37,593 bases of DNA from Actinomycetes bacterium. Its GTDB lineage: Bacteria; Actinomycetota; Thermoleophilia; Solirubrobacterales; Solirubrobacteraceae. Position 1 is the first letter of the stretch, and every line of letters begins with the position of its first letter. Shown here piece after piece: positions 482 through 12,817 of this stretch. The notes below the pieces were generated by a model. The model was not told the origin of the DNA. It made no database searches and saw nothing but the letters and a program-made list of their open reading frames with translations. The translations under genes and the position numbers were made by a program. The stretch is from contig JAJZWB010000021.1 in NCBI GenBank assembly GCA_021846845.1, forward strand, positions 1 through 37,593, in the 5' to 3' direction.

Positions 482-850
482 ATGGGCTTTCAGATCGGTA
501 TGGACCTGGTCGAGCTGATGGAGATGGAGCGGTCCCTGGAGATGCACGACGACCGCTTCCTGGACCGTGTGTACACACCCGCCGAGCGCGACCGTGCCCG
601 GCGTCATCCGCGCCGGCTCGCCGCCGGCTTCGCCGCCAAGGAGGCAACCATGAAGGCGTTGGGGAGAACGGACGAGGCCATCGGCTGGCGCTCGGTGGAG
701 GTGATCGGCGACGGGCGCTCGCCGTCGGTGGTGCTCCGCGGCGACGCCGCTCGCCTCGCCCGCGAGCGCGGCGTCGTCGGACTGACCCTGAGCGTGAGCT
801 GCGACGGCGAGCTCGCCGCCGCCCTGGCGATCGCAGAGGTGGCGTCGTGA
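482..850 (+). CDS. AcpS-like 4'-phosphopantetheinyl transferase
   Basis: This 122-residue protein has the AcpS family size. It would transfer phosphopantetheine from CoA to a serine of a carrier protein. The Mg-binding motifs are visible: G-M-D-L-V-E-L with Asp8 near the N-terminus, and F-A-A-K-E-A with Glu54. The usual S-x-S-H segment near the C-terminus reads SVSC (about residues 104-107), so the customary His is Cys. The ATG at 482 places the GMDLVE motif where the family has it; no strong Shine-Dalgarno is visible. The stop overlaps the GTG of the carrier-protein gene by 4 nt. That arrangement suggests an activator dedicated to the neighbouring carrier protein rather than the housekeeping AcpS, although the latter cannot be excluded. 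Confidence 0.8.
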   Translation: MGFQIGMDLVELMEMERSLEMHDDRFLDRVYTPAERDRARRHPRRLAAGFAAKEATMKALGRTDEAIGWRSVEVIGDGRSPSVVLRGDAARLARERGVVGLTLSVSCDGELAAALAIAEVAS

Positions 851-1104
851 GCGAGACGGTCAACGCCACGATCCGCACGGTGGTGCGCGACCATGCCCGC
901 CTGCCGGTCGACGTCGACACGCTTGCCGACGACGAGGACCTGTTCGCCGCAGGGATGAGCTCCCACGCGAGCGTCAACGTGATGCTCGCGCTCGAGGACG
1001 CGTTCGACCTCGAGTTCCCCGACGCGATGCTCAAGCGCAGCGTGTTCGAGAGCATCACGGCGATCGAGGCGGCGATCGCGTCGCTGCGGGAGCTCGCTGC
1101 ATGA
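847..1104 (+). CDS. Discrete acyl/aminoacyl carrier protein
   Basis: This small acidic protein of 85 residues has the carrier-protein fold pattern. The phosphopantetheine site is G36-M-S-S39-H in place of the canonical G-x-D-S-L, with Ser39 as the modified residue, followed by the helix ASVNVMLALEDAFDLEFP. The loss of Asp before the serine and the S-S-H/F-A-S-V style of this loop resemble, from memory, the stand-alone carrier proteins served by amino acid:[carrier protein] ligases (such as Bll0956 of Bradyrhizobium). The GTG start overlaps the preceding stop (GTGA), and its own stop overlaps the next ATG (ATGA), so translation is probably coupled. The amino acid carried cannot be read from sequence. 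Confidence 0.85.
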   Translation: MSETVNATIRTVVRDHARLPVDVDTLADDEDLFAAGMSSHASVNVMLALEDAFDLEFPDAMLKRSVFESITAIEAAIASLRELAA

Positions 1105-2276
1105 CCGTCCAGATTGACCGGGGACGGGCGTTCCTGGACGAGATCGAGCGGATCGCGCGGGACGTCGCGGCCGCGCACGCCGACGAGGTCGATCGCGACG
1201 CCCGCTTCCCGGTGGAGGCGATCGACGCGCTGCGCGAGGCAGGCGCGCTGTCGGCGTTCGTGCCCGCGTCCCTCGGAGGCGGCGGCGTCCCCCTCACGGC
1301 GCTCGCGCGCGCCTGCCTGGAGCTCGCACGCGGCTGCTCGGCGACCGCGATGGTGTTCGCGATGCACCAGATCCAGATCGCCACGATCGTCCGCCACATG
1401 GATCGGGGCGGCTGGTACGAGTCGTACCTGCGCCGCGTCGTCGACGAGCAGCGGCTGGTCGCGTCGATCACCTCCGAGGTGGGGACCGGCGGCGACATGA
1501 GCCGCTCGATCGCGGCCGTCACCCAGGCCGACGGCGGCCTGCTGCGATTCGAGAAGCAGGCGCCGACGGTGAGCTACGGCGCGCACGCGGACGACTTCTT
1601 CACGACCCTCAGGCGCGCCCCGGAGGTCGACGAGGGCGACCAGGTGATGGTGCTGCACCACGCCGACCAGACCGACCTGGAACGGGTCGGCACCTGGGAC
1701 ACGATCGGGATGCGGGGGACGTGCTCTCCCGGGTTCGTGGTGCGCTGCACGTTCGCCCCGGAGCAGGTCCTGGCGGCTCCGTTCTCGGCGGTGGCCAACG
1801 AGTCCCAGGTGCCGATCTCGCACGTCCTGTGGTCCCACGTATGGCTCGGGATCGCGGTCGAGGCGTTCGAGCGGGGGCGCGCATTCGTGCGCGCCGCGGC
1901 CAGGCGCAGCCGCGGGAATCCGGTGCCGGCGGCGCACAGCCTCTCCCGGGTGATGAGCGAGCTGGCGCTGCTGAGAGCGGAGGTCGGGTCCGGGCTCGCC
2001 GAGTTCGTCGCCGCCGACGAGGACGACGATCGCGACCGGCTGTCGACGATGGCGTCGATCCTGCGCTTCAACAACCTCAAGCTCGCAGCATCCGAGCAGA
2101 CGCCGCGGGTCTGCATGGGAGTGCTGGAGGTGATCGGGATCATGGCGTACAAGAACGACTCGCCCTACGGCGTCGGCCGGCAGCTGCGCGACGCGCTGTC
2201 GGCGAGGCTGATGGTCGCCAATGAGCGGGTCCATTCGATCGACGCCGGACTGCTGATGATCGCCAAGGAGGTTTGA
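1101..2276 (+). CDS. Acyl-CoA dehydrogenase-like flavoprotein
   Basis: This 391-residue protein has full acyl-CoA dehydrogenase architecture: a helical N-terminal domain (about 1-115), a beta-barrel middle domain with ITSEVGTGGD (the family LTEPGSGSD flavin loop, about 125-135), and a helical C-terminal domain (about 230-391). The position that holds the catalytic Glu in short- and medium-chain enzymes (Y-E-G-T, ten residues into the R-D-A block) aligns by eye with Val372; Glu375 is the nearest acid. It therefore may not be an ordinary fatty acyl-CoA enzyme. Being coupled to a carrier-protein gene (ATGA overlap) and an aminoacyl-carrier ligase, it plausibly oxidises an aminoacyl group on the carrier protein, as some flavoproteins do with prolyl-carrier proteins. 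That substrate is inference. Confidence 0.85.
   Translation: MTVQIDRGRAFLDEIERIARDVAAAHADEVDRDARFPVEAIDALREAGALSAFVPASLGGGGVPLTALARACLELARGCSATAMVFAMHQIQIATIVRHMDRGGWYESYLRRVVDEQRLVASITSEVGTGGDMSRSIAAVTQADGGLLRFEKQAPTVSYGAHADDFFTTLRRAPEVDEGDQVMVLHHADQTDLERVGTWDTIGMRGTCSPGFVVRCTFAPEQVLAAPFSAVANESQVPISHVLWSHVWLGIAVEAFERGRAFVRAAARRSRGNPVPAAHSLSRVMSELALLRAEVGSGLAEFVAADEDDDRDRLSTMASILRFNNLKLAASEQTPRVCMGVLEVIGIMAYKNDSPYGVGRQLRDALSARLMVANERVHSIDAGLLMIAKEV
2265..2271 (+). promoter_or_regulatory. Strong Shine-Dalgarno for the carrier-protein ligase gene
   Basis: AAGGAGG, 6 nt before the ATG at 2278. It is one of the few near-perfect Shine-Dalgarno sequences in the window and fixes this start. It lies inside the last codons of the upstream dehydrogenase gene. 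Confidence 0.75.
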
Positions 2277-2277
2277 G

Positions 2278-3207
2278 ATGACCGAGGCGCGCGCGGCCTC
2301 GCCAGACCAGGCGCAGCTGCTGGAGCGGCTGCTCGAGCACGGCCACCTGGTCGCGTCCGGCGTGCCGGGCGTCTACGGCCACGGCGCCGAGTTCGAGGAT
2401 GTCCGCGCCCGCCTCGACGAGCGGCTCAGCTCGGAGGCCGCGGATCGCGGCGCCGAACGGCTGCGCTTCCCGCCGCTGCTGCCCCGCCACCACCTGGAGT
2501 CCAGCGGCTACCTCGGCTCGTTCCCGCATCTCGCCGGCACCGTGTACTCGTTCGACGGCGACGAGCGCCAGGCGCGCGAGCAGGCCGAGCTCGCCGCTCG
2601 CCACGAGCCGTGGGGCGAGTTTCAGCAGATGACCGAGCTCACGCTGATGCCGGCGGCCTGCTATCCGGTGTACCCAGCCGTCGCGGCCCGCGGCCGCCTG
2701 CCGGTGGGCGGCGTGTTCGTCGACGCCGGCGGGGCATGGGTCTTCCGCCACGAGCCGTCGCACGATCCGGCCCGCCGCCAGATCTTCCACCAGCACGAGC
2801 TGGTGAGGATCGGGGAGCCCGAGGCGGTGCTGGAATGGCGTGAGGAGTGGGCGGACCGTGGCCTGGCGCTCCTGCGGGCGCTCGGCCTCGACGCGCGGCT
2901 GGATGTGGCCAACGACCCCTTCTTCGGCCGGCGCGGGAGGATGTTGGCCGCCAACCAGCAGGCCGAGCGTCTGAAGCTTGAGCTGCTCGTCCAGATCGCC
3001 GGTCCCGAGCCGACCGCGTGCGCCTCGTTCAACCACCACCGCGACCATTTCGGGTCGACCTGGGGGATCGAGCTGTCGGATGGCCGCACCGCTCACACGG
3101 CCTGCCTGGGCTTCGGGCACGAGCGGATCGTGCTGGCGCTGCTCCAGCGCCACGGGATGGACCCCGGCGCCTGGCCCGGTTCCGTGCGAGCGGAGCTGTG
3201 GCGGTGA
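2278..3207 (+). CDS. SerRS-like amino acid:[carrier protein] ligase
   Basis: This is a class II aminoacyl-tRNA synthetase catalytic core of only 309 residues, without the N-terminal helical arm that binds tRNA in true SerRS. Motif 2 is seen as V-F-R-H-E (155-159) with the following Q-I-F-H-Q-H-E-L-V-R-I-G, and motif 3 as G-F-G-H-E-R (278-283). Cys128, Glu174 and Cys276 fit the Cys-Glu-Cys zinc set of methanogen-type SerRS and of the Bradyrhizobium ligase Bll0957 (recalled as Cys131/Glu176/Cys279). Characterised relatives activate glycine or alanine with ATP and load it onto the phosphopantetheine of a small carrier protein instead of tRNA. The adjacent carrier protein and AcpS-like genes support that role. 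The amino acid used here is unknown. Confidence 0.88.
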   Translation: MTEARAASPDQAQLLERLLEHGHLVASGVPGVYGHGAEFEDVRARLDERLSSEAADRGAERLRFPPLLPRHHLESSGYLGSFPHLAGTVYSFDGDERQAREQAELAARHEPWGEFQQMTELTLMPAACYPVYPAVAARGRLPVGGVFVDAGGAWVFRHEPSHDPARRQIFHQHELVRIGEPEAVLEWREEWADRGLALLRALGLDARLDVANDPFFGRRGRMLAANQQAERLKLELLVQIAGPEPTACASFNHHRDHFGSTWGIELSDGRTAHTACLGFGHERIVLALLQRHGMDPGAWPGSVRAELWR

Positions 3208-4208
3208 TGGTCAAGGCCCCGGCGCCGCGCCCCACGGGCGACCGGCCGGTCGCCTCCGCGCCCAGCCTCACCGGCCACCGGCCTGAAGCCTACGAGCGTC
3301 ACCCGCTGCACGCCGCGGAGCGCGCGTACATCGAGACCAACTGCTACGCCGACGTGGTGATCGAGCTGCTGCACGCTCTCGGCTACGAGCCGCTGGCGGC
3401 GTTCGGGCATCTGGTGCGGATGGACTTCGAGGGCGACCAGTGGACGTTCTTCAAGCCGCCCGCGGAGGACCTCGAGCGGCTCTACGGCATAGACGTGCAC
3501 GAGATGCAGCCCTACCGGCCGCTGCCGGCCCAGATCGCCGAGCAGCTGGCCAGGGGGCGGACCCTGATCGTGGAGCTCGACGCGTGGTGGCTGCCCGACA
3601 CCGCCTCGACCAGCTACCGCGCGCAGCACGTCAAGACCTCGGTCGCCGTCGATGCGATCGACCAGCGCGGGCACAGCCTGCGCTACTTCCACGGGCCGGG
3701 GCTGTTCGAGCTCGCCGGCGAGGACTACCGCGGCGTGCTGCGGGTCGACGGCGTCGCGGGCGACGTGCTGCCGCCCTACACCGAGCTGGTGCGCTTCGAC
3801 GCGGGCGATCGGCTCCAGGGCCCCGCGCTGCGCGCGGAGGCGCTCGAGACGCTGCGCCGCCACCTGGCGCGGGTGCCGTCCACGAACCCCTTCGAGCGCT
3901 TCGCGGCGCACCTGGTCTCGGAGCTGCCCGCGCTGCTGGCCGGGGGGCCCGAGGACTACCACGCGTTCGCGTTCGCGACCGTGCGGATGGCGGGCTCCGC
4001 GTTCGAGCTGCTGGCCGACCATGCCCGCTGGCTGCTCGGACCGGAGGTCGATCCGGGCGTCGCCGCGATGACGGAGATCGTCGACGGCTGCAAGGCGCTG
4101 TCGTTCCGGCTCGCCCGGCGGAGGGGCTTCGACCCCGAGCCCGCGCTCGGCTTACTCGCCGACGCCTGGGAGAGGGCCCTGAGCTGCGTCGCCGCGGCGG
4201 CGGGCTGA
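3207..4208 (+). CDS. DUF1839 protein, candidate aminoacyl transferase
   Basis: 333 residues from ATG 3207, which overlaps the preceding TGA by 1 nt (TGATG); an in-frame GTG at 3204 is an alternative start. Conserved family blocks are present: E-T-N-C-Y near residue 45, DFEGDQWTFFKPP, L-Y-G-I, V-E-L-D-A-W-W-L-P-D-T, and A-Q-H-V-K-T-S. DUF1839 genes are recalled as neighbours of amino acid:[carrier protein] ligases, but their reaction is unproven. The order Cys near a helix, then G-R-x-L-I-V-E-L-D-x-W-x-L-P, then His before a strand resembles the N-terminal domain of BtrH. BtrH moves an aminoacyl chain from a carrier protein to an aminoglycoside through a papain-like Cys/His pair. I therefore suggest, as inference, an aminoacyl-carrier-protein transferase. 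Confidence 0.75.
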   Translation: MVKAPAPRPTGDRPVASAPSLTGHRPEAYERHPLHAAERAYIETNCYADVVIELLHALGYEPLAAFGHLVRMDFEGDQWTFFKPPAEDLERLYGIDVHEMQPYRPLPAQIAEQLARGRTLIVELDAWWLPDTASTSYRAQHVKTSVAVDAIDQRGHSLRYFHGPGLFELAGEDYRGVLRVDGVAGDVLPPYTELVRFDAGDRLQGPALRAEALETLRRHLARVPSTNPFERFAAHLVSELPALLAGGPEDYHAFAFATVRMAGSAFELLADHARWLLGPEVDPGVAAMTEIVDGCKALSFRLARRRGFDPEPALGLLADAWERALSCVAAAAG

Positions 4209-4215
4209 GCGCTCG

Positions 4216-6801
4216 ATGGATTCCGTGAGCGAAGCCCGGGACCGGCGCCTGCCGCTGGCCGGCGTCTGGGATCTGACCTGGACCGAGGCGGGCGCCTGCG
4301 CGCGGCCCCGCGACCTCGACGCGCTCGAGGTACGGTGGCTTCCGGCGCCGGTGCCCGGCACGGTCGCCGGCGCGCTGGCGCTGGCGACGGCCGACGGCGC
4401 CGTGCACCGGCCGGTGCCCGACGAGCGTCACATCGATCGTCTGGACTGGTGGTATCGGCGCTCGTTCCAGGCCCCCGCCGCCCTCGACGGCGAGGAGGCG
4501 GTGCTGTCGCTTGAGGGGATCGCGACCGTCTCGGAGGTCTTCCTCAACGGCCGGCGTCTGCTCGCCTCGGACTCGATGTTCGCCTCCCACGAGCGGGACG
4601 TCGGCGCGCTGCTGGGGGATGAGAACGAGATCGTGGTGTGCTGCCGCGCGCTCGCCCCGCTGCTGGCCGGCCGCCGCCGCCCTCGAGCGCGCTGGCGCAC
4701 GCGGCTGGTCGCGGAGGGAAATCTGCGCTTTCACCGCACGATGCTGCTGGGTCGCGCCCCGGGCTTCGCGCCCGGGCCGGCCGTGGCGGGGCTCTGGCGC
4801 CCGGCGGCGATCGAGCGCCGGCGCGGTCTGGTGCTGGAGCGCCCTCGGATGCGCGCCCGGCCGGACGGGCGCGACGGCGTGCTGGAGTGCTCTGCGCGGG
4901 TGCGCGCGCTGCCGGGCTTCGAGCTGCCCGACGAGCTGACCGTGGCGGTGGCATCCGGCGGCTCGACGGTGACCGGGACGCTCGCCGTGGATCGGGTCGA
5001 CGCGCGCTCCGGGGCCTGCTCGGGCGCCGTCACGGTGCCGGATGCCGAGCGCTGGTGGCCACACACCCATGGCCGTCCCGCGCTCTACGAGGTGACGATC
5101 GGCGGGCCGGATGCCGTGCTTCACCGCGCCCGCGTCGGCTTTCGGGCGCTTGAGTCGCCCGGGGAGGTCGAGGCCGACGGGCTCGACCTCAGGGTCAACG
5201 ATGTGCCGGTGTTCGCTCGCGGTGCGGTCTGGGCGCCGCCGGACCTGCGGGCCCCGCACTGCGACCGTGAGGCGCTCCGCGACATCCTGGCCCGCGTGGC
5301 CGGCGCCGGGATGAACATGGTGCGCGTTCACGGAACCGCGGCCTACGAGTCGGACGCCTTCTACGAGCTCTGCGATGAGCTCGGGATCCTCGTCTGGCAG
5401 GACTTCATGTTCGCCAACCTCGACTACCCGGACGGCGACCCGGCCTTCATCGCCGAGGTCGAGCGCGAGGCGCGCGCCCAGCTCGAGCGCCTCGGACACC
5501 ATCCGTGCCTCGCCGTCCTGTGCGGCTCCAGCGAGGTCGCCCAGCAGGTCGCGATGCTCGGCCTGGACCGCGAGCTCGCGCACGGCCCGCTGTACAGGCG
5601 GCTGCTGCCGGAGCTGGTGCGCGAGGCTCAGGTCGACGCGCCCTACGCCCCGTCGGCGCCCTGCGGTCCCGAGCTGCCGTTCCGCTACGACCGCGGCGTG
5701 GCCAACTACTTCGGGGTCGGCGCGTACCTGCGCCCGCTCTCCGACGCACGGCTGTCCGGGGTGCGCTTCGCGACCGAGTGCCTGGCCTTCGCCAACGTTC
5801 CCGACGACGATGCGCTGGCGGATCTTGACACGCCCGGCGGGCTGGCCGTCCACCATCCGGGCTGGAAGGCCGGGGTCGCCCGCGACGCCGGGGAGGGGTG
5901 GGACTTCGACGACGTCCGCGACCACTACCTTCGCCTGCTGCTCGATGTCGACCCGGTGGCGCTCCGGTGGTCCGACCAGGAGCGCTACCTGCAGCTCTCA
6001 CGCGTCGTCACCGGCGAGGTGATGGCCGACGTGTTCGGCGAGTGGCGGCGGGGCGGCTCCGCGTGCAGGGGTGCGCTGGTCCTGTGGCTGAAGGACCAGC
6101 GGCCGGGAGCGGGCTGGGGACTGCTGGATCACCGGGGCCGTCCCAAGGCGGTCATGCACCACCTCCGGCGGGCGCTGGCGCCGGTCGCGGTCTGGACGAC
6201 CGACGAGGGCCTCCGGGGGATCGACGTCCATGTCGCCAACGACCGGCCGACCCCGCAGCGGGCCGTGCTGCGGGTCGCGCTGTACCGGGACTTCGCGGTG
6301 CGCGTCGACGCGGCACAGGAGGAGATCACGATCGAGCCGCACGGGTACCTGCGCCGCTCCGTTGCGGGCCTGATCGGTCGGTTCGTGGACGCCTCCTGGG
6401 CCTATCGCTTCGGCCCGCCGGCCCAGGATCTGGTGGCGGTGACGCTCCAGGGGCGCGACGGGGCCGTGATCTCACAGGCATTCCGCTTTCCCGCCGGGCG
6501 TCCGCTGTCCGCCTGTACGGCGGACGAGCTCGGACTCGAGGCCCAGCTGCAGCCCGGGCCCGAGGGCCCGCCGCAGCTGCGCGTGCGCAGCCGGCGCTTC
6601 GCGTACGGGGTGCGGGTCGAGGTGCCCGGGTTCGTCGCCGGCGACGACTGGTTCGGCGTCGAGCCTGGAGGGGAGAGGATCCTCGAGCTGGCGCCCGCGG
6701 AGCCCGGCGCGGGTCGTGACGCGCCCGGCGGCGCCGGCGCCGCGGGGGCGCTGACCGCGCTCAACCTGGTCGGGCGCGTCCGGATCGCGCCGCCGGGCTG
6801 A
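4216..6801 (+). CDS. GH2 family protein, beta-mannosidase-like
   Basis: 861 residues, starting 7 nt after the DUF1839 stop. Glycoside hydrolase family 2 layout is visible: a sugar-binding jelly-roll domain (about 10-200), an Ig-like domain (about 205-310), a TIM barrel (about 320-600) and C-terminal beta domains. The barrel carries beta-mannosidase signatures: A-V-W-A-P-P-D (337-343), N-M-V-R-V-H-G, and Y-E-L-C-D-E-L-G-I-L-V-W-Q-D-F-M-F-A (383-400). The acid/base Glu440 sits in G-S-S-E rather than the family N-E, so the conserved Asn is Ser439. The nucleophile candidate is Glu521 in F-A-T-E-C. No signal peptide is evident, so it is probably cytoplasmic. Its place at the end of the carrier-protein operon suggests that it trims or transfers a sugar in the product, or binds one; substrate unknown. 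Confidence 0.8.
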   Translation: MDSVSEARDRRLPLAGVWDLTWTEAGACARPRDLDALEVRWLPAPVPGTVAGALALATADGAVHRPVPDERHIDRLDWWYRRSFQAPAALDGEEAVLSLEGIATVSEVFLNGRRLLASDSMFASHERDVGALLGDENEIVVCCRALAPLLAGRRRPRARWRTRLVAEGNLRFHRTMLLGRAPGFAPGPAVAGLWRPAAIERRRGLVLERPRMRARPDGRDGVLECSARVRALPGFELPDELTVAVASGGSTVTGTLAVDRVDARSGACSGAVTVPDAERWWPHTHGRPALYEVTIGGPDAVLHRARVGFRALESPGEVEADGLDLRVNDVPVFARGAVWAPPDLRAPHCDREALRDILARVAGAGMNMVRVHGTAAYESDAFYELCDELGILVWQDFMFANLDYPDGDPAFIAEVEREARAQLERLGHHPCLAVLCGSSEVAQQVAMLGLDRELAHGPLYRRLLPELVREAQVDAPYAPSAPCGPELPFRYDRGVANYFGVGAYLRPLSDARLSGVRFATECLAFANVPDDDALADLDTPGGLAVHHPGWKAGVARDAGEGWDFDDVRDHYLRLLLDVDPVALRWSDQERYLQLSRVVTGEVMADVFGEWRRGGSACRGALVLWLKDQRPGAGWGLLDHRGRPKAVMHHLRRALAPVAVWTTDEGLRGIDVHVANDRPTPQRAVLRVALYRDFAVRVDAAQEEITIEPHGYLRRSVAGLIGRFVDASWAYRFGPPAQDLVAVTLQGRDGAVISQAFRFPAGRPLSACTADELGLEAQLQPGPEGPPQLRVRSRRFAYGVRVEVPGFVAGDDWFGVEPGGERILELAPAEPGAGRDAPGGAGAAGALTALNLVGRVRIAPPG

Positions 6802-6838: not shown

Positions 6839-8278
6839 ATGACGGCGCGCTCGCAGGCAACGGCGGTGGGCTGGCTGGACGCCGGGGCGGCGCAGCGGCT
6901 GGAGCGGCGGCTGGAGTCCGCCCTGCGCGAGGCCAGGCGCCGTGGGCGCGCGACCCTGGTCAGCGTCAGCTGTCGTCTCCCGGGCACGGGCGTCGACCCG
7001 AGCGCGGTCGTCGCCGCATCGCGCCGGCCCGGCGACCGGTGGTTCTGCCTGGAGCAGCCCGACCGCGACCGGTCGGCGCTCGCCGCGCTCGGGGAGGTGC
7101 TGGCGCTGGAGGACTCCGGCCCGGGGCGATTCGCCTCGCTGGCCGCGCGCTGGCGCCGCGTGGCGGGCGCGGCGCTCGCCGACGAGCCCGACGGGCCTTC
7201 GGGCGGCGGACTGGTGGCGGTCGGCGGCTTCGCATTCGATCCCGCCGGCGGGGCCTCTCGCACTTGGTCGGGCTTCGCCCCGGCGTCGCTGGTCGTGCCG
7301 GAGCTGTCGCTCGCGCGGCGCGGAGACCTCACGCGGCTGACGGTCAACGTGCTGGTGACCGCCGACGACACCGCCGAGGACGCGGGGGGGAGGATCGCCA
7401 GGCGGCTGCGGGAGCTGCGTGAGGTGCCGCTGCCGCTGCTGGATCCCGCGCCGGTGGGCGACTTCGAGGTCTCAAGCCCGCTGGCGCCGGCGCACTACGA
7501 GGAGGCCGTCGCCCGCGCGGTCGCGCGGATTCGCAACGGCGAGTTCCAGAAGGTGGTGCTCGCGCGCGAGGTCGAGGTGCACGCGCCCTCGGCGCACGAT
7601 CCGGCTGCCGTGATCGGCCTGTTGAGGGAGGCCTTCCCCAGCTCGTTCGTCTACGCGGTCGGGCGCGGCGAGGCGACCTTCACCGGCGCCACGCCCGAGC
7701 TGCTGGTGCGGCGCGAGGGCCAGCGGGCCACCACCGTCGCGCTCGCGGGCTCGACCCGCCGCAGCGCCGATCCCGCGGTCGACGACCACCTGGGCGAGCA
7801 GCTGCTTCGATCCGACAAGGACCGTGAGGAGAACGCGATCGTCGCGCGGCGGATCGCGCGGGCGCTGCGTCCGCACTCGGTCTGGGTGACCGTCGCACCC
7901 GAGCCCGTCGTGGTCAAGGTGGCCAACATCCAGCACCTGGCGGCCCCGATCCGCGCTCAGCTGACCGCGCCGGTCGATGCGGTGACGCTCGCCGGCCACC
8001 TGCATCCGACGCCGGCGGTGGGCGCCGAGCCGGCGGCCGCGCTATCGGTGATCCCGGCTCTGGAGGGCTTCGACCGCGGCTGGTACGCGGGTCCGGTCGG
8101 CTGGACCGACGCCTCCGGCGATGGGGAGTTCTGCGTCGCGCTGCGCTGTGCGCTGCTGCGGGGGCGGGTCGGTCGCTGCTACGCCGGCTGTGGGATCGTC
8201 CGCGACTCGGACCCCTCCGCGGAGCTTGCCGAGACCGAGGTCAAGCTCCAGGTGATGCTGCCGGCGCTGGCCGGGTGA
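6839..8278 (+). CDS. menF: Isochorismate synthase
   Basis: 479 residues. It isomerises chorismate to isochorismate, the entry step to menaquinone. The C-terminal chorismate-binding domain shows its usual blocks: FQKVVLAREVEV, FTGATPELLVRREG, L-A-G-S-T-R-R, DKDREENAIV, H-P-T-P-A-V-G-A-E-P, RGWYAGPVGW, and a terminal E-x-E-x-K-L block. Salicylate, anthranilate and aminodeoxychorismate synthases share this fold; the men neighbourhood decides the call. It faces menD and overlaps its 3' end by 38 bp tail to tail (8241-8278), which is consistent with one men locus. Confidence 0.9.
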   Translation: MTARSQATAVGWLDAGAAQRLERRLESALREARRRGRATLVSVSCRLPGTGVDPSAVVAASRRPGDRWFCLEQPDRDRSALAALGEVLALEDSGPGRFASLAARWRRVAGAALADEPDGPSGGGLVAVGGFAFDPAGGASRTWSGFAPASLVVPELSLARRGDLTRLTVNVLVTADDTAEDAGGRIARRLRELREVPLPLLDPAPVGDFEVSSPLAPAHYEEAVARAVARIRNGEFQKVVLAREVEVHAPSAHDPAAVIGLLREAFPSSFVYAVGRGEATFTGATPELLVRREGQRATTVALAGSTRRSADPAVDDHLGEQLLRSDKDREENAIVARRIARALRPHSVWVTVAPEPVVVKVANIQHLAAPIRAQLTAPVDAVTLAGHLHPTPAVGAEPAAALSVIPALEGFDRGWYAGPVGWTDASGDGEFCVALRCALLRGRVGRCYAGCGIVRDSDPSAELAETEVKLQVMLPALAG

Positions 8279-9965
8279 GATCGAGCGCGGCGACCGCCTC
8301 GGCGACGGCGTCGGCCACGCGCCGGTGCAGCTCCACGTTGCGGTGGCGGTCGCTCCTGATCTCGATCAGCCGGGGCCGGTCGCTTGCCAGCGCGGCGAGC
8401 AGGTCCGGCGCGGTCGCGGCTCGCACGTGCTCGAACCCGTAGAGCGCCGCCGCGTGGGCGAAGTCCAGTCCGTGCGGGGTGGCGACGTGCTCCTCGAAGG
8501 CGTCCCGCTCGCCGCTGATCGGCAGGAAGTGGAAGATCCCGCCGCCGTCGTTGTGCACCAGCACGATCGTCAGATTCAGCCGCAGGCGCCTCGCGGCGAG
8601 CATGCCGCCGATGTCGTGGGCGATCGCGACGTCGCCGATCAGCAGCGTGACGGGCCGCCCCGACGCCGCGACGATCCCGAACGCCGTCGAGACGGTTCCG
8701 TCGATCCCGTTGGCACCGCGGTTGGACACGACCCGCGGCAGCCGGTCGCCGGTGCCCAGGTAGAGCTCGGCGTCGCGGATCGGCATCGAGGCGGCCACGA
8801 CCAGCGTCTGCTCCGGTCCGAGCGCCTCGCCCAGCAGCCGCACCACGCGCGGCTCGGAGAGCTCGTCGCCGAGCACCCGCTCGACGGTCGCCGTCGCGGT
8901 CGCGTCGGCTGCCCGCCATGCCGCCAGCCAGCCGGGATCGGTCGGGCCCTGCGGCTCCCATGCCCGCAGGGTCGCGACCGGATCCCCCGCCAGCACATCC
9001 CACAGCGCGGCTGCGGGGTCGTGCCAGGCGCCCTCGGGGTCGAGCGCGATCTGCCTGATGTGACGCAGCGAACCGAGCCACTCACGCAGCGGCTTGGACG
9101 TCGGCAGGTCTCCCACGCGGAGCACCAGCTGAGGCTCGAGCGAGTCGGCGAGGTTGGGCAGGCGAAGCAGGAGGTCGTAGGTGGCGATCGCCGACTCGCC
9201 GCGGCGGGCGCCCGAGAGCGGGTCGGCGAGCAGCGGCCATCCGGCTCGCCGCGCGAACCGCGCGACCGCTCGTCCGAGCTCGGGGTCTCGCTCGTCCCGG
9301 CCGGCGACGATCACGCCGCGAGCGGGGAGCGGGACCACCGGGCTCGCGGCGGCCGCCGGCGGCGCCGGCGCGAAGGTCGTCCAGGGCCGGCCGCCGGGCC
9401 TGCCGGGCAGGCCGTCCGCGGGCAGATCGCCGGGGACGAGCGGGTCGCGCAGCGGGAAGTTGAGGTGCACGGGCCCGGGCCTGCCCGACGCGGCGGTCCA
9501 CCAGGCCCTGCAGGCGAGCTGGCGGACCCAGGCGAGCGTTGCGGGGGTCGCGACGTCGACGCCCACCTCGAAGAACCACTTGGCCGCGTCGCCGTAGATC
9601 TTGAGCTGGTCGATCGCCTGGCCTGCGCCGACCTCGCGCAGCTCGGGCGGGCGATCGGCGGTCAGCACCAGGAGCGGGATCCGCGCGTGGTGGGCCTCGA
9701 TCACGGCCGGCGCGAGGTTCGCGGCCGCAGTCCCGGACGTGCACGTGACCGCGACCGGCGCGCCCGCGGCGCGGGCGGCCCCCAGCGCGAAGAAGCCGGC
9801 CGAGCGCTCGTCGATCTGCGACCAGCAGCGGATCCGCGGCTCGCGCGCGAGCGCGAGCACGATCGGCGTGTTGCGCGATCCCGGGGAGGTGCACGCGTGG
9901 CGCATTCCGCAGCGGGCGAGCTCGTCGCAGAACGCCCGCAGCAGCAGGTGCGAATCGCCGCTCAC
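8241..9965 (-). CDS. menD: SEPHCHC synthase
   Basis: 574 residues with a GTG start. It is a thiamine-diphosphate enzyme that adds 2-oxoglutarate-derived succinic semialdehyde to isochorismate, giving 2-succinyl-5-enolpyruvyl-6-hydroxy-3-cyclohexene-1-carboxylate. MenD signatures are clear: CTSPGSRNTP near the N-terminus, WSQIDERSAGFFALG, TCTSGTAAANLAPAVIEA with the cofactor-activating Glu, LTADRPPELR, GQAIDQ, and a C-terminal L-I-G-D-V-A block followed about 25 residues later by H-N-D-G-G-G-I-F, the metal/ThDP motif. It is divergent from menH with a 53-bp gap and convergent with menF. The start is chosen because the MenD fold begins within about ten residues; no good Shine-Dalgarno is seen. 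Confidence 0.95.
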   Translation of the reverse strand: MSGDSHLLLRAFCDELARCGMRHACTSPGSRNTPIVLALAREPRIRCWSQIDERSAGFFALGAARAAGAPVAVTCTSGTAAANLAPAVIEAHHARIPLLVLTADRPPELREVGAGQAIDQLKIYGDAAKWFFEVGVDVATPATLAWVRQLACRAWWTAASGRPGPVHLNFPLRDPLVPGDLPADGLPGRPGGRPWTTFAPAPPAAAASPVVPLPARGVIVAGRDERDPELGRAVARFARRAGWPLLADPLSGARRGESAIATYDLLLRLPNLADSLEPQLVLRVGDLPTSKPLREWLGSLRHIRQIALDPEGAWHDPAAALWDVLAGDPVATLRAWEPQGPTDPGWLAAWRAADATATATVERVLGDELSEPRVVRLLGEALGPEQTLVVAASMPIRDAELYLGTGDRLPRVVSNRGANGIDGTVSTAFGIVAASGRPVTLLIGDVAIAHDIGGMLAARRLRLNLTIVLVHNDGGGIFHFLPISGERDAFEEHVATPHGLDFAHAAALYGFEHVRAATAPDLLAALASDRPRLIEIRSDRHRNVELHRRVADAVAEAVAALDLTRPAPAASPGA

Positions 9966-10018
9966 GGGCGGACCACGGCGGAGGTCGTCTGTCCTGGCTG
10001 TGCGGTCATGATCTGGCT

Positions 10019-10846
10019 ATGCAGCAGCCACCGATGACGACCCTCGTGCTCCTGCACGGATTCACCAACACGGGTGCGAGCTGGGACGGCGTGGTGACGG
10101 CGCTGCCGGCAGGCTACCGCGCCCTGGCGCCCGACATCCGCGGCCACGGCGCTGCGGCCTCTCTGCGGCCGGTGACGCTCGACGCGGTGCTGGGCGACCT
10201 CGACGCGCTCGCGCCGGGCCCGTTCGAGCTCGCCGGCTACTCGATGGGCGGTAGGATCGCGCTGCAGGCCGCGCTGAGCGACCGGCTGGCGGGGCGCGTG
10301 CGGCGCCTGACGCTGATCGGTTCCAGTCCCGGTCTCGCGGACCCGGCGCAGCGCGCCGAGCGCAGGGCCGGGGACGAGCGGCTCGCCGCGGAGGCCGAGG
10401 CGCTCGACGTGGGCGAGTTCGCGCGGCGCTGGGCGAGGACGCCGGTGCTCGCCGGGTTGACGGGCGATGCCGCGAACGCCTCGCGCATGGACCGGCTGCG
10501 CCACCCCTCCACAGCGGGACTGGCGGAGGCGCTGCGCGGCCTCGGCACCGGCGCGCTTCCGTCGCTCTGGGACCGGCTCGGCGAGCTGGCGATCCCGGTC
10601 TGCCTGGTGGTGGGCGAGCGCGACTCGAAGTTCCGGGCGATCGCGGAGCGCATGGCGGCCGCCATCGCGCGTGCCAGCCTGACCGTGGTGCCGGGCGCCG
10701 GACACGCCGTGCACCTCGAGGCGCCCGCGGCCGTCGCGTCGGCGATCGACGGTCGCGTGCACCTCGAGTCGACGGCGGCCGTCGCGCCGGCGATCGACGG
10801 TCCACCGCTATCCGGGGGCCCGGGGCGAGGCACGCCGCGCCGCTAG
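10019..10846 (+). CDS. menH: Alpha/beta hydrolase, probable SHCHC synthase
   Basis: 275 residues. MenH removes pyruvate from the MenD product to give SHCHC. The alpha/beta-hydrolase features are LLHGFTNTGASWD with the oxyanion region, nucleophile Ser in G-Y-S-M-G-G, a D-I-R-G-H-G loop, and the terminal His in G-A-G-H-A-V-H-L-E-A-P. The men neighbourhood supports MenH, although the fold alone is generic. An in-frame ATG at 10034 (MTTLVLLHG) is an equally good start; CATGAT at 10007-10012 is a weak -10 for the ATG at 10019. The C-terminus is odd: the last helix segment V-H-L-E-x-x-A-A-V-A-x-A-I-D-G occurs twice because of a 48-bp tandem duplication, followed by a Pro/Gly/Arg tail. The stop shares 4 bp with the menC stop. 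Confidence 0.82.
   Translation: MQQPPMTTLVLLHGFTNTGASWDGVVTALPAGYRALAPDIRGHGAAASLRPVTLDAVLGDLDALAPGPFELAGYSMGGRIALQAALSDRLAGRVRRLTLIGSSPGLADPAQRAERRAGDERLAAEAEALDVGEFARRWARTPVLAGLTGDAANASRMDRLRHPSTAGLAEALRGLGTGALPSLWDRLGELAIPVCLVVGERDSKFRAIAERMAAAIARASLTVVPGAGHAVHLEAPAAVASAIDGRVHLESTAAVAPAIDGPPLSGGPGRGTPRR
10709..10804 (+). repeat. 48-bp tandem duplication in the 3' end of menH
   Basis: Two adjacent copies, 10709-10756 and 10757-10804, both beginning GTGCACCTCGAG. They are imperfect but in frame and encode a repeated 16-residue segment. Confidence 0.85.
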
Positions 10847-11883
10847 CGCGGATACCAGTCCAGGAGTCCCTCGCCGAGGCCGGGACCCGCGGCCGGCGCG
10901 ATCGCGCCGCGGACCGCCGGCAGCGGGTCGGGGCGCCCCTCGAACAGCGCCAGCGTGGCAAGCCCGGAGGCCCGTCGCGGGGCGATCACGGCCGCCGCGT
11001 GCAGCGCGCCGGCGATCCCGAGCGGACCGTCGAGGGTGGAGGCCAGATAGACGTCGTAGCCGAGCGCGCGGGCGCGCATGGCGGCATCGATCGTCCCCGA
11101 GATCCCGCCGCAGCGCCCGAGCTTGAGGCAGAGGGCGTCGGCGGCGGGGCGGGTCATCGCGTCGGGGTCGTGCGCCGATTCGTCGAGCGCGAGCGGCACG
11201 CCCACCTCGGTCCACAGCCGGCGCGTCGTCGCGGCGCCGTGCACCGGCTCCTCGCAGAGCTCCAGCCCGACCGGCTCGAGTGCGTCGAGCGCGGCGCGGG
11301 CCTGGTCGTGCGACCACGCGCCGTTGGCGTCGATCCGGATCGCGATCTCCGGCCCGGCGAACGCTCGCACCGCCGCCAGGCGCCCCGCGTCATCGCCGAC
11401 CCCGACCTTCACCTTGATCGTCCGGAAGCCGTCGACGCGGGCCTGGGCGGCCTCCCGCGCGGCGCTGGAGCGGTCGGTGGTCGCGATCGTGAGGTTGACC
11501 GTGACCCGCGGCGGTCGGGCTGCGCCGAGCAGTCTCCAGACCGGCTCGCGCACGCGGCGCCCGGCCAGGTCCCAGAGCGCCAGGTCGAGCGCTGACAGCG
11601 CCGGCGCGACCACGGTCGCCTCGGAGCACCGGGCGAGGACGTCGGCGACCGGCGCGGCGTCCGGGTAGGCGGCGAGCACCGGACGGCAGTCCTCAAGCGC
11701 CCGCGCGACGGTGTCGATCGCGACCCCGTCGTAGGTCTCCAGCGGCGCCGCCTCGCCGTGCCCCTCCAGGCCGTCCGCCGCGCGCAGCGACACCAGGATC
11801 AGCTCACGATCGCTGACGGCGCCGTGCGCGGTGACGAAGGGCTCGCGCAGCGGCACGCGCACCCGCCTCCAGGAGAGCTCCAT
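10843..11883 (-). CDS. menC: o-Succinylbenzoate synthase
   Basis: 346 residues. An enolase-superfamily enzyme that dehydrates SHCHC to o-succinylbenzoate. The active-site set is complete: Lys157 and Lys159 in T-I-K-V-K-V-G, Asp185 in R-I-D-A-N-G-A-W, Glu211/Glu212 in C-E-E-P-V, Asp234 in L-D-E-S, and Lys254 in C-L-K-L-G-R-C-G-G. Dipeptide epimerases look similar; the position between menH and menA makes MenC the better call. It follows menA on the minus strand after a short gap that holds a duplicated copy of the menA end. Its TAG stop overlaps the menH TAG on the other strand. Confidence 0.9.
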   Translation of the reverse strand: MELSWRRVRVPLREPFVTAHGAVSDRELILVSLRAADGLEGHGEAAPLETYDGVAIDTVARALEDCRPVLAAYPDAAPVADVLARCSEATVVAPALSALDLALWDLAGRRVREPVWRLLGAARPPRVTVNLTIATTDRSSAAREAAQARVDGFRTIKVKVGVGDDAGRLAAVRAFAGPEIAIRIDANGAWSHDQARAALDALEPVGLELCEEPVHGAATTRRLWTEVGVPLALDESAHDPDAMTRPAADALCLKLGRCGGISGTIDAAMRARALGYDVYLASTLDGPLGIAGALHAAAVIAPRRASGLATLALFEGRPDPLPAVRGAIAPAAGPGLGEGLLDWYPR

Positions 11884-11921
11884 GATCAGCCGCTCCGTTC
11901 CCGGTCCATGATCAGCCGCTC
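11880..11921 (-). repeat. 26-bp-period direct repeat at the menA/menC junction
   Basis: The 16-mer CCATGATCAGCCGCTC (plus strand) occurs at 11880-11895 and again at 11906-11921. Each copy holds the TGATCATGG start/stop context on the minus strand. Between the menA stop and the menC ATG this leaves a seven-codon ORF (MDRERSG) that could pass ribosomes on to menC. Confidence 0.75.
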
Positions 11922-12817
11922 AGCAGCAGCCCCGCCGAGAGCAGCAGGCAGAAGCCGAGCTGGAGCTGCCCGGTCCCGGCCAGCGCCCTGTTCAGCGACG
12001 GGCCGTCGGTGTGCCGGTCGACTGTCTGCACCAGCCGCACCGCCAGCGGCACCGTCAGCCAGGTGAGCAGCAGCCACGCGCTGAAGCGGCCCGACAGCAG
12101 CCAGATCAGCGCCACGATCACGAACGGGAGCCCGACCGTCACCGCGTAGAGCGTCCGGCTGCGCGCACGGCCGACCCTCACCGCCAGCGTCCGCTTTCCG
12201 GCGCGGCGGTCGGAGTCGATGTCGCGCACGTTGTTGACGACCAGGATCGCGGCGGCCAGGAGGCCGACCGGCACCGCGAGCGCGAACGCCTCCCACTCCA
12301 GGCTCCTCACCTGCACGAAATACGAGCCGGCGACGGCCACCAGGCCGAAGAACAGGAACACGAACACCTCGCCGAGGCCCTCGTAGCCGTACGGACGCGG
12401 CCCGCCCGTGTACGCCGCGCCGGCGAGGATCGACGCCGCTCCGATCACCAGCAGGACCCACCCTGCGACCACGATCAGGTAGACGCCGGCGAGCACCGCG
12501 AGCCCGAAGGTGACGTAGGTGGCGATCAGGACCTGCCGTGGCGGCACCAGGCCGCCCGCCGTCACGCGCACGGGACCGAGCCGGTCCTCGGCGTCGGCGC
12601 CACGCCGCGCGTCTGAGTAGTCGTTGGAGAGATTCGTTCCGACCTGGATCAGGAGCGCCCCGATCAGCGCCGCCGCGAAGCGGAGCGGGTGGAAGACGTT
12701 CGCGTAGCCCGCCAGCGCGGTCCCGACGAGCACCGGGGCGACGGCTGCGGGCAGGGTCCGCGGCCTGGCCGCCATCAGCCAGATCCGCACCGTCCCGATG
12801 CCCGCGGCGGTGGTCAC
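11912..12817 (-). CDS. menA: 1,4-Dihydroxy-2-naphthoate polyprenyltransferase
   Basis: 301 residues, an integral-membrane UbiA-family prenyltransferase that attaches the isoprenoid tail to DHNA to make demethylmenaquinone. The two Asp-rich motifs are visible: N-D-Y-S-D-A-R-R-G-A-D (about 65-75) for the diphosphate-Mg site, and D-I-D-S-D-R-R-A-G-K-R-T (about 194-205). Eight or nine hydrophobic segments are spread through the chain. The GTG start overlaps the menB TAG by 1 nt (TAGTG), so menB, menA and menC form a minus-strand operon in that order. The N-terminal R-I-W-L-M-A-A-R-P-R-T-L-P-A-A is typical of MenA. Confidence 0.94.
   Translation of the reverse strand: MTTAAGIGTVRIWLMAARPRTLPAAVAPVLVGTALAGYANVFHPLRFAAALIGALLIQVGTNLSNDYSDARRGADAEDRLGPVRVTAGGLVPPRQVLIATYVTFGLAVLAGVYLIVVAGWVLLVIGAASILAGAAYTGGPRPYGYEGLGEVFVFLFFGLVAVAGSYFVQVRSLEWEAFALAVPVGLLAAAILVVNNVRDIDSDRRAGKRTLAVRVGRARSRTLYAVTVGLPFVIVALIWLLSGRFSAWLLLTWLTVPLAVRLVQTVDRHTDGPSLNRALAGTGQLQLGFCLLLSAGLLLSG

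Follow-up and report, generated by a model that had tools for sequence, protein, structure and literature searches.

The operon and its genes

The window, that is, the whole stretch of 37,593 nucleotides that was analyzed, carries on its + strand an operon for AcpS, a carrier protein (CP), an acyl-CoA-dehydrogenase-like protein (ACAD), a SerRS-like ligase, a DUF1839 protein and a GH2-like glycosidase (Table 1). The DUF1839 reading frame encodes 333 amino acids, and its ATG shares one base with the TGA of the upstream ligase. It matches the profile PF08893 over residues 26-329 with 323 bits (curated cut-off 22.5); NCBIfam holds no DUF1839 model. C130, E176 and C278 of the ligase are each present in all rows of its alignment (73/73), and Glu occupies both expected places of the GH2 protein in most rows (E440: 61/65; E521: 64/65). 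Menaquinone genes follow at 6839-12817, among them a chorismate-binding enzyme recognized by profile search and MenD-, MenH-, MenC- and MenA-like genes assigned by eye from translations.

Table 1 Genes of the operon and DUF1839 codons discussed in the text
Feature	Position	Strand	Evidence
AcpS-type phosphopantetheinyl transferase	482..850	+	PF01648 E 2.6e-12; 20/73 loci
Carrier protein (CP)	853..1104	+	PF00550 E 6.3e-7; attachment Ser 77/77
Acyl-CoA-dehydrogenase-like flavoprotein (ACAD)	1101..2276	+	PF02771 E 7.2e-15; upstream of DUF1839 in 74/77 loci
SerRS-like amino acid:[carrier protein] ligase (loader)	2278..3207	+	NF005479 389.7 bits, cut-off 357
DUF1839 protein, proposed CP-dependent aminoacyl transferase	3207..4208	+	PF08893 E 2.7e-96
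C46 codon, proposed nucleophile (T-N-C)	3342..3344	+	81/81; first residue of helix 46-57
D125 codon	3579..3581	+	81/81; aligned BtrH-family Asp 12/12
H141 codon, catalytic His of the sequence-only reading	3627..3629	+	80/81; precedes strand 143-152
T144 codon, Thr/Ser in canonical papain/BtrH His slot	3636..3638	+	strand register vs BtrH-family model; PMC10318531 (accessible part)
H162 codon (Y-F-H), proposed catalytic His, canonical acid/Asn slot	3690..3692	+	81/81; last residue of strand 157-162; PMC10318531 (accessible part)
GH2-like glycosidase, cassette partner	4216..6801	+	PF22666 E 1.8e-17; downstream of DUF1839 in 76/77 loci

Relatives and conserved residues of DUF1839

A contig scan for DUF1839 returned at least 556 confirmed relatives, of which the best-scoring 80 were aligned with the protein of the window (alignment A2, 81 rows); because these were chosen by score, the sample is biased toward near relatives. 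The motifs picked out by the sequence-only reading lie at residues 44-46 (T-N-C), 117-132 (G-R-T-L-I-V-E-L-D-A-W-W-L-P-D-T), 139-145 (A-Q-H-V-K-T-S) and 159-162 (R-Y-F-H), and their conservation across the 81 aligned members shows that they are not chance. Within A2, which covers the window and the best 80 of at least 556 relatives, N45, C46, D125, D131, K143 and H162 are invariant (81/81), position 144 holds either Thr (51 of 81 rows) or Ser (30 of 81 rows), and H141 occurs in 80 of 81, the exception being Asn in locus L030. K296 and R304, each present in 80 of 81 rows of A2 with a gap in the remaining row, are in the final portion of a long helix, at which the CP could dock. In CcbD, according to the accessible part of PMC12945683, contacts to the acceptor come from Asp114 and His131, and those to the CP from Arg residues 312-324; the order of elements suggests that D125 is the counterpart of Asp114.

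The cassette is present in Pseudomonadota, Actinomycetota, Acidobacteriota, Planctomycetota, Verrucomicrobiota, Myxococcota and Abditibacteriota; Azospirillum is one of its cultured, genetically tractable hosts. Among 296 genomes of the phylum of the window, three have DUF1839, all three with the ligase, and seven have the ligase. L030, in which the cassette is present, comes from a MAG titled Klebsiella pneumoniae; it groups with uncultured proteobacteria in the DUF1839 tree, and the title may be wrong. The DUF1839 proteins of L041 and L048 (Propionibacteriaceae) are nested within Rhizobiaceae with full support, pointing to gene transfer.

Predicted fold and its solved matches

The AF2 model of DUF1839 built from A2 (pLDDT 94.4, pTM 0.90) has a papain-like domain (residues ~30-200) and a C-terminal helical bundle (~205-332). 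C46 opens helix 46-57, after which come the strands 119-125, 143-152 and 157-162, just as had been expected of a Cys at the start of a helix and strands thereafter. A Foldseek search returned 19 chains at E <= 0.001, all of them AziU3/U2, CcbD or CtaG. VIA-align ranked the same proteins first (CcbD: Z = 19.9; AziU3/U2: Z = 18.1; CtaG: Z = 17.7), with 14 rows at Z = 16.2-19.9 over 266-288 residues, near full length, the next row at 7.6 and single-domain peptidases at 6-7. The predicted papain-like transferase fold is therefore supported, with these three families well ahead of all other solved matches. For BtrH we modeled a PF14399 protein (first row L101, 12 rows, pLDDT 82.1); the same three families came first (Z = 19.7-21.3), followed by single papain-like domains (Z <= 11), and its C19 starts helix 19-30 as C46 starts helix 46-57 in DUF1839.

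Sequence comparison gave fainter links, BtrH being represented by 12 PF14399 relatives. The DUF1839 protein of the window had no match to PF14399 (BtrH_N) listed at E up to 10, and the BtrH profile reached it at E = 2.7; Pfam BtrH_N is listed for 15 of the 81 members of A2 (window and best 80 of at least 556; best E = 9.3e-4). The profile-profile check proposed along with the BtrH idea aligned 277 columns with Cys on Cys (hhalign E = 4.2e-4), a link in the expected place but a weak one (probability 34.5%). PDB sequence searches returned only coiled-coil chance matches with the DUF1839 profile, and mostly the same matches plus one C39-like peptidase with the BtrH profile, so the relation of DUF1839 to CcbD, AziU3 and CtaG is visible by fold only.

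The idea that DUF1839 is a BtrH-like aminoacyl transferase finds good support as a way of working, because the modeled fold is shared with CcbD, which moves CP-bound proline, and because CcbD, AziU3/U2 and CtaG are the top matches of both models; its catalytic His was probably misplaced. CcbD is described as a ping-pong enzyme with a Cys-His-Glu triad that joins CP-bound proline to the amine of a thiooctose, an amino sugar (PMC12945683, accessible part). DUF1839 resembles CcbD and LmbD, the lincosamide condensation enzymes, in fold over almost the entire length (Z = 19.9, rmsd 3.4, 285 residues) and in its Cys at a helix start; CcbD and LmbD likewise act on a CP-bound amino acid supplied by a separate loader enzyme (same source, same part). 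It differs in its predicted C-(T/S)-H triad, its ~11% identity to CcbD, and its loader, usually SerRS-like in the DUF1839 cassette; the acceptor of CcbD is an amino sugar. The BtrH (PF14399) family belongs to the same fold group, with the same Cys position and weak sequence links, but by strand register DUF1839 has Thr/Ser in place of the canonical His of this family and His in place of its canonical Asp. CtaG (closthioamide) is similar over nearly its full length (Z = 17.7), whereas the residues named in its PDB titles (C11, H128 and D144) follow the ordinary order, not the swapped one. AziU3/U2 (azinomycin) is also a near full-length match (Z = 18.1), but forms a two-protein complex according to its PDB titles. 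The chemistry of AziU3/U2 is aziridine formation, not plain acyl transfer, and with this pair among the matches the modeled fold alone does not fix the reaction.

The catalytic histidine

The His of the A-Q-H motif (H141), formerly taken as catalytic, is probably not the catalytic one. In the BtrH-family model (L101), strand 134-142 begins with H134, and D152 comes directly after strand 147-151. The hairpins of L101 and DUF1839 match position by position at an offset of 10 (H134 to T144, D142 to D152 and D152 to H162), 19 residues separate the conserved Asp that precedes the hairpin from the His slot in both (D115-H134 in L101; D125-T144 in DUF1839), and H141 falls on I131 of L101, three residues outside. 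Since the strand register is equal in both models, T144 takes the place of the BtrH His and H162 that of the BtrH Asp. A 2023 survey of papain-like proteins described DUF1839 as papain-like with a C-(T/S)-H triad in which His and Thr/Ser are exchanged (PMC10318531, accessible part), and a swapped triad C46-(T/S)144-H162 is likely from the models. If true, the active site would be rearranged in a way unusual for a transferase.

For the canonical order, with His at a strand start and the acid closing the following strand, the register thus gives Thr/Ser144 and H162, whereas sequence alignments mostly give H141. That the same transferase works instead with a C46-H141 dyad, as the sequence-only reading had it, is unlikely in our view, though several observations favor it. 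H141 is nearly invariant in A2 (window and best 80 of at least 556), 19 of the 20 members whose BtrH-profile alignments cover the His column place the BtrH His on it, hhalign does the same, and the Asp-His spacing of other PF14399 relatives is 16, as between D125 and H141. However, the supporting alignments, that of hhalign included, require compensating gaps of three residues. The one remaining member of the 20, the best-scoring L043, has the BtrH His aligned to T144, in agreement with the strand register of both models; L030 lacks H141 yet keeps C46, Ser144 and H162; and the accessible part of PMC10318531 gives C-(T/S)-H. Our choice of H162, which is probably right, follows the modeled strand register and the modeling in that part of the survey, against most sequence alignments.

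Gene neighborhood and replacement of the loader

Locus counts were drawn from the DUF1839 loci of the best 80 of at least 556 relatives, with loci too short to tell excluded from each count. The ligase lies immediately upstream of DUF1839 in 70/78 loci, the CP is found in 75/76, and an exosortase-hydrolase-like alpha/beta protein, so named from models scoring below their cut-off, follows GH2 in 32/62. No fusion of DUF1839 with CP or ligase was evident from the reading frames of the loci. Among the eight loci lacking an adjacent upstream ligase, two have it further upstream (L016 and L060), two elsewhere in the genome (L041 and L048), and four have none. The genomes of L025, L037, L079 and L085 yielded no match to NF005479 and none to the ligase of the window at E up to 10; the L015 genome, a MAG, had no ligase match.

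All four genomes of the former set (4/4) encode an amino-acid adenylation protein with 57-100% identity to that of L037, which served as the query and is itself the 100% (matches over 505-515 residues, E < 1e-187). The two adenylation proteins checked passed the TIGR01733 cut-off, and in L025 and L037 the gene lies inside the fetched DUF1839 locus. None of 46 ligase-bearing control genomes (6 + 40) had a match above 39% identity; 4/4 against 0/46 has a chance of 1 in 230,300 if genomes are independent, which they are only in part. The four swap rows stand apart in the DUF1839 tree, and four changes are needed, all forced by well-supported branches. The pocket motifs of the adenylation proteins look alike across the four genomes, and these motifs allow no amino acid to be assigned.

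Because the loader was swapped while DUF1839 stayed, the input of DUF1839 is probably aminoacyl-CP; the simplest reading is that it needs aminoacyl-CP and is indifferent to which enzyme made it. Gene order and the loader swap thus support the earlier placement of DUF1839 at the step after carrier-protein loading.

Proposed reaction and its alternatives

Family, fold, conserved residues, gene order and loader swap were computed for DUF1839. It most likely takes an amino acid off the CP and attaches it to another molecule, probably an amino sugar. We are reasonably confident in predicting that DUF1839 belongs to the CcbD/BtrH fold group and works as a CP-dependent aminoacyl transferase, which forms an acyl-enzyme on C46 and serves an amine acceptor, with H162 as base together with Thr/Ser144. 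We infer the acyl-enzyme, the amine acceptor, the sugar and the order of steps. The SerRS-like ligase, or the adenylation protein in some genomes, would load an amino acid on the phosphopantetheine of the CP; the dehydrogenase-like flavoprotein may then alter the CP-bound amino acid; C46 would receive it in thioester linkage; and this thioester would be attacked by an amine, most likely that of a sugar or glycoside, yielding an amide, with H162 acting as base, steadied by Thr/Ser144.

The ACAD position that corresponds, in an alignment by eye, to the catalytic Glu of medium-chain acyl-CoA dehydrogenase holds Val, Ile or Leu in 75/75 rows. Since the usual catalytic Glu seems absent, its sequence indicates that ACAD may be no ordinary acyl-CoA dehydrogenase, and these residues fit the monooxygenase-like role suggested in 2010 (PMC2922099, accessible part).

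Other roles can be set against aminoacyl transfer. A thioesterase or editing hydrolase removing wrongly loaded aminoacyl groups from the CP would need little more than a papain-like Cys enzyme next to the loader, and the cassette has no certain acceptor gene; we nevertheless hold it improbable, as CcbD, an amide-forming transferase, is among the nearest solved folds whose reaction has been described, and a cassette left with no transferase would offer no outlet for the loaded amino acid, yet GH2 is nearly always there. The presence of AziU3/U2 among the three best fold matches speaks for a reaction other than transfer on the carrier-bound amino acid, a cyclization or elimination as in that pair. 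We think this quite improbable, given that C46 and H162 are invariant in the window and the best 80 of at least 556 relatives, as Cys catalysis predicts, and that the cassette has no evident leaving-group enzyme. The accessible part of PMC10318531 proposed, from gene context, a cell-wall or glycan-processing peptidase-like enzyme, to which the papain-like fold and the GH2 neighbor would be suited; it leaves unmentioned the match to CcbD, CtaG and AziU, and in the comparison with the DUF1839 model single-domain peptidases reach Z of only 6-7, compared with 16-20 for those families; we regard this role as very improbable.

Returning to aminoacyl transfer, we offer only tentatively a wider picture in which a widespread pathway ends with DUF1839, itself a branch of the CcbD/BtrH transferases marked by the swapped triad, the amino acid being first oxidized on the CP by ACAD and then passed to an amino sugar or glycoside that is trimmed by GH2, with the loader replaced several times and the transferase kept.

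Loading of amino acids on carrier proteins by relatives of aminoacyl-tRNA synthetases was reportedly described in 2010. A note in proof of that year predicted that Atu2574, a conserved ORF beside the SerRS-like ligase that from its gene set would be a DUF1839 protein, attaches an amino acid to an amino sugar at the cell surface (PMC2922099, accessible part). The outline is therefore not new, as a ligase role for this ORF had been foreseen in 2010 (PMC2922099) and the survey of 2023 had already given the papain-like fold (PMC10318531). The accessible parts of these two accounts name neither the match to CcbD, CtaG and AziU3 nor the loader swap. In the CC-licensed PMC literature, beyond which print may differ, one paper was found to name DUF1839 and none to name it together with CcbD, LmbD, CtaG or AziU3; as far as that literature shows, the tie to CcbD, CtaG and AziU3 and the repeated loader swap are new. 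A 2022 review called the biological role of carrier-protein aminoacylation still unknown and gives Gly and Ala as the amino acids of such ligases (PMC9437257, accessible part). The tie to CcbD gives this aminoacylation a concrete, testable reaction and, if true, our reading of DUF1839 fills the missing step of a widespread, unexplained bacterial pathway.

Surroundings of individual cassettes

On a plasmid of Rhizobium acidisoli (L009:10007-12454) the cassette adjoins nif genes, and the matches to GH2 are scattered over five separate pieces of reading frame in a region with no annotated gene; GH2 looks broken there, and the DUF1839, ligase, ACAD and CP genes look intact. The locus of Reinekea (L037:1-20945) also holds FemAB-like, deacetylase-like and FkbH-like genes and two exosortase-hydrolase-like proteins, mostly recognized by eye from translations, which suggests a surface-polysaccharide setting.
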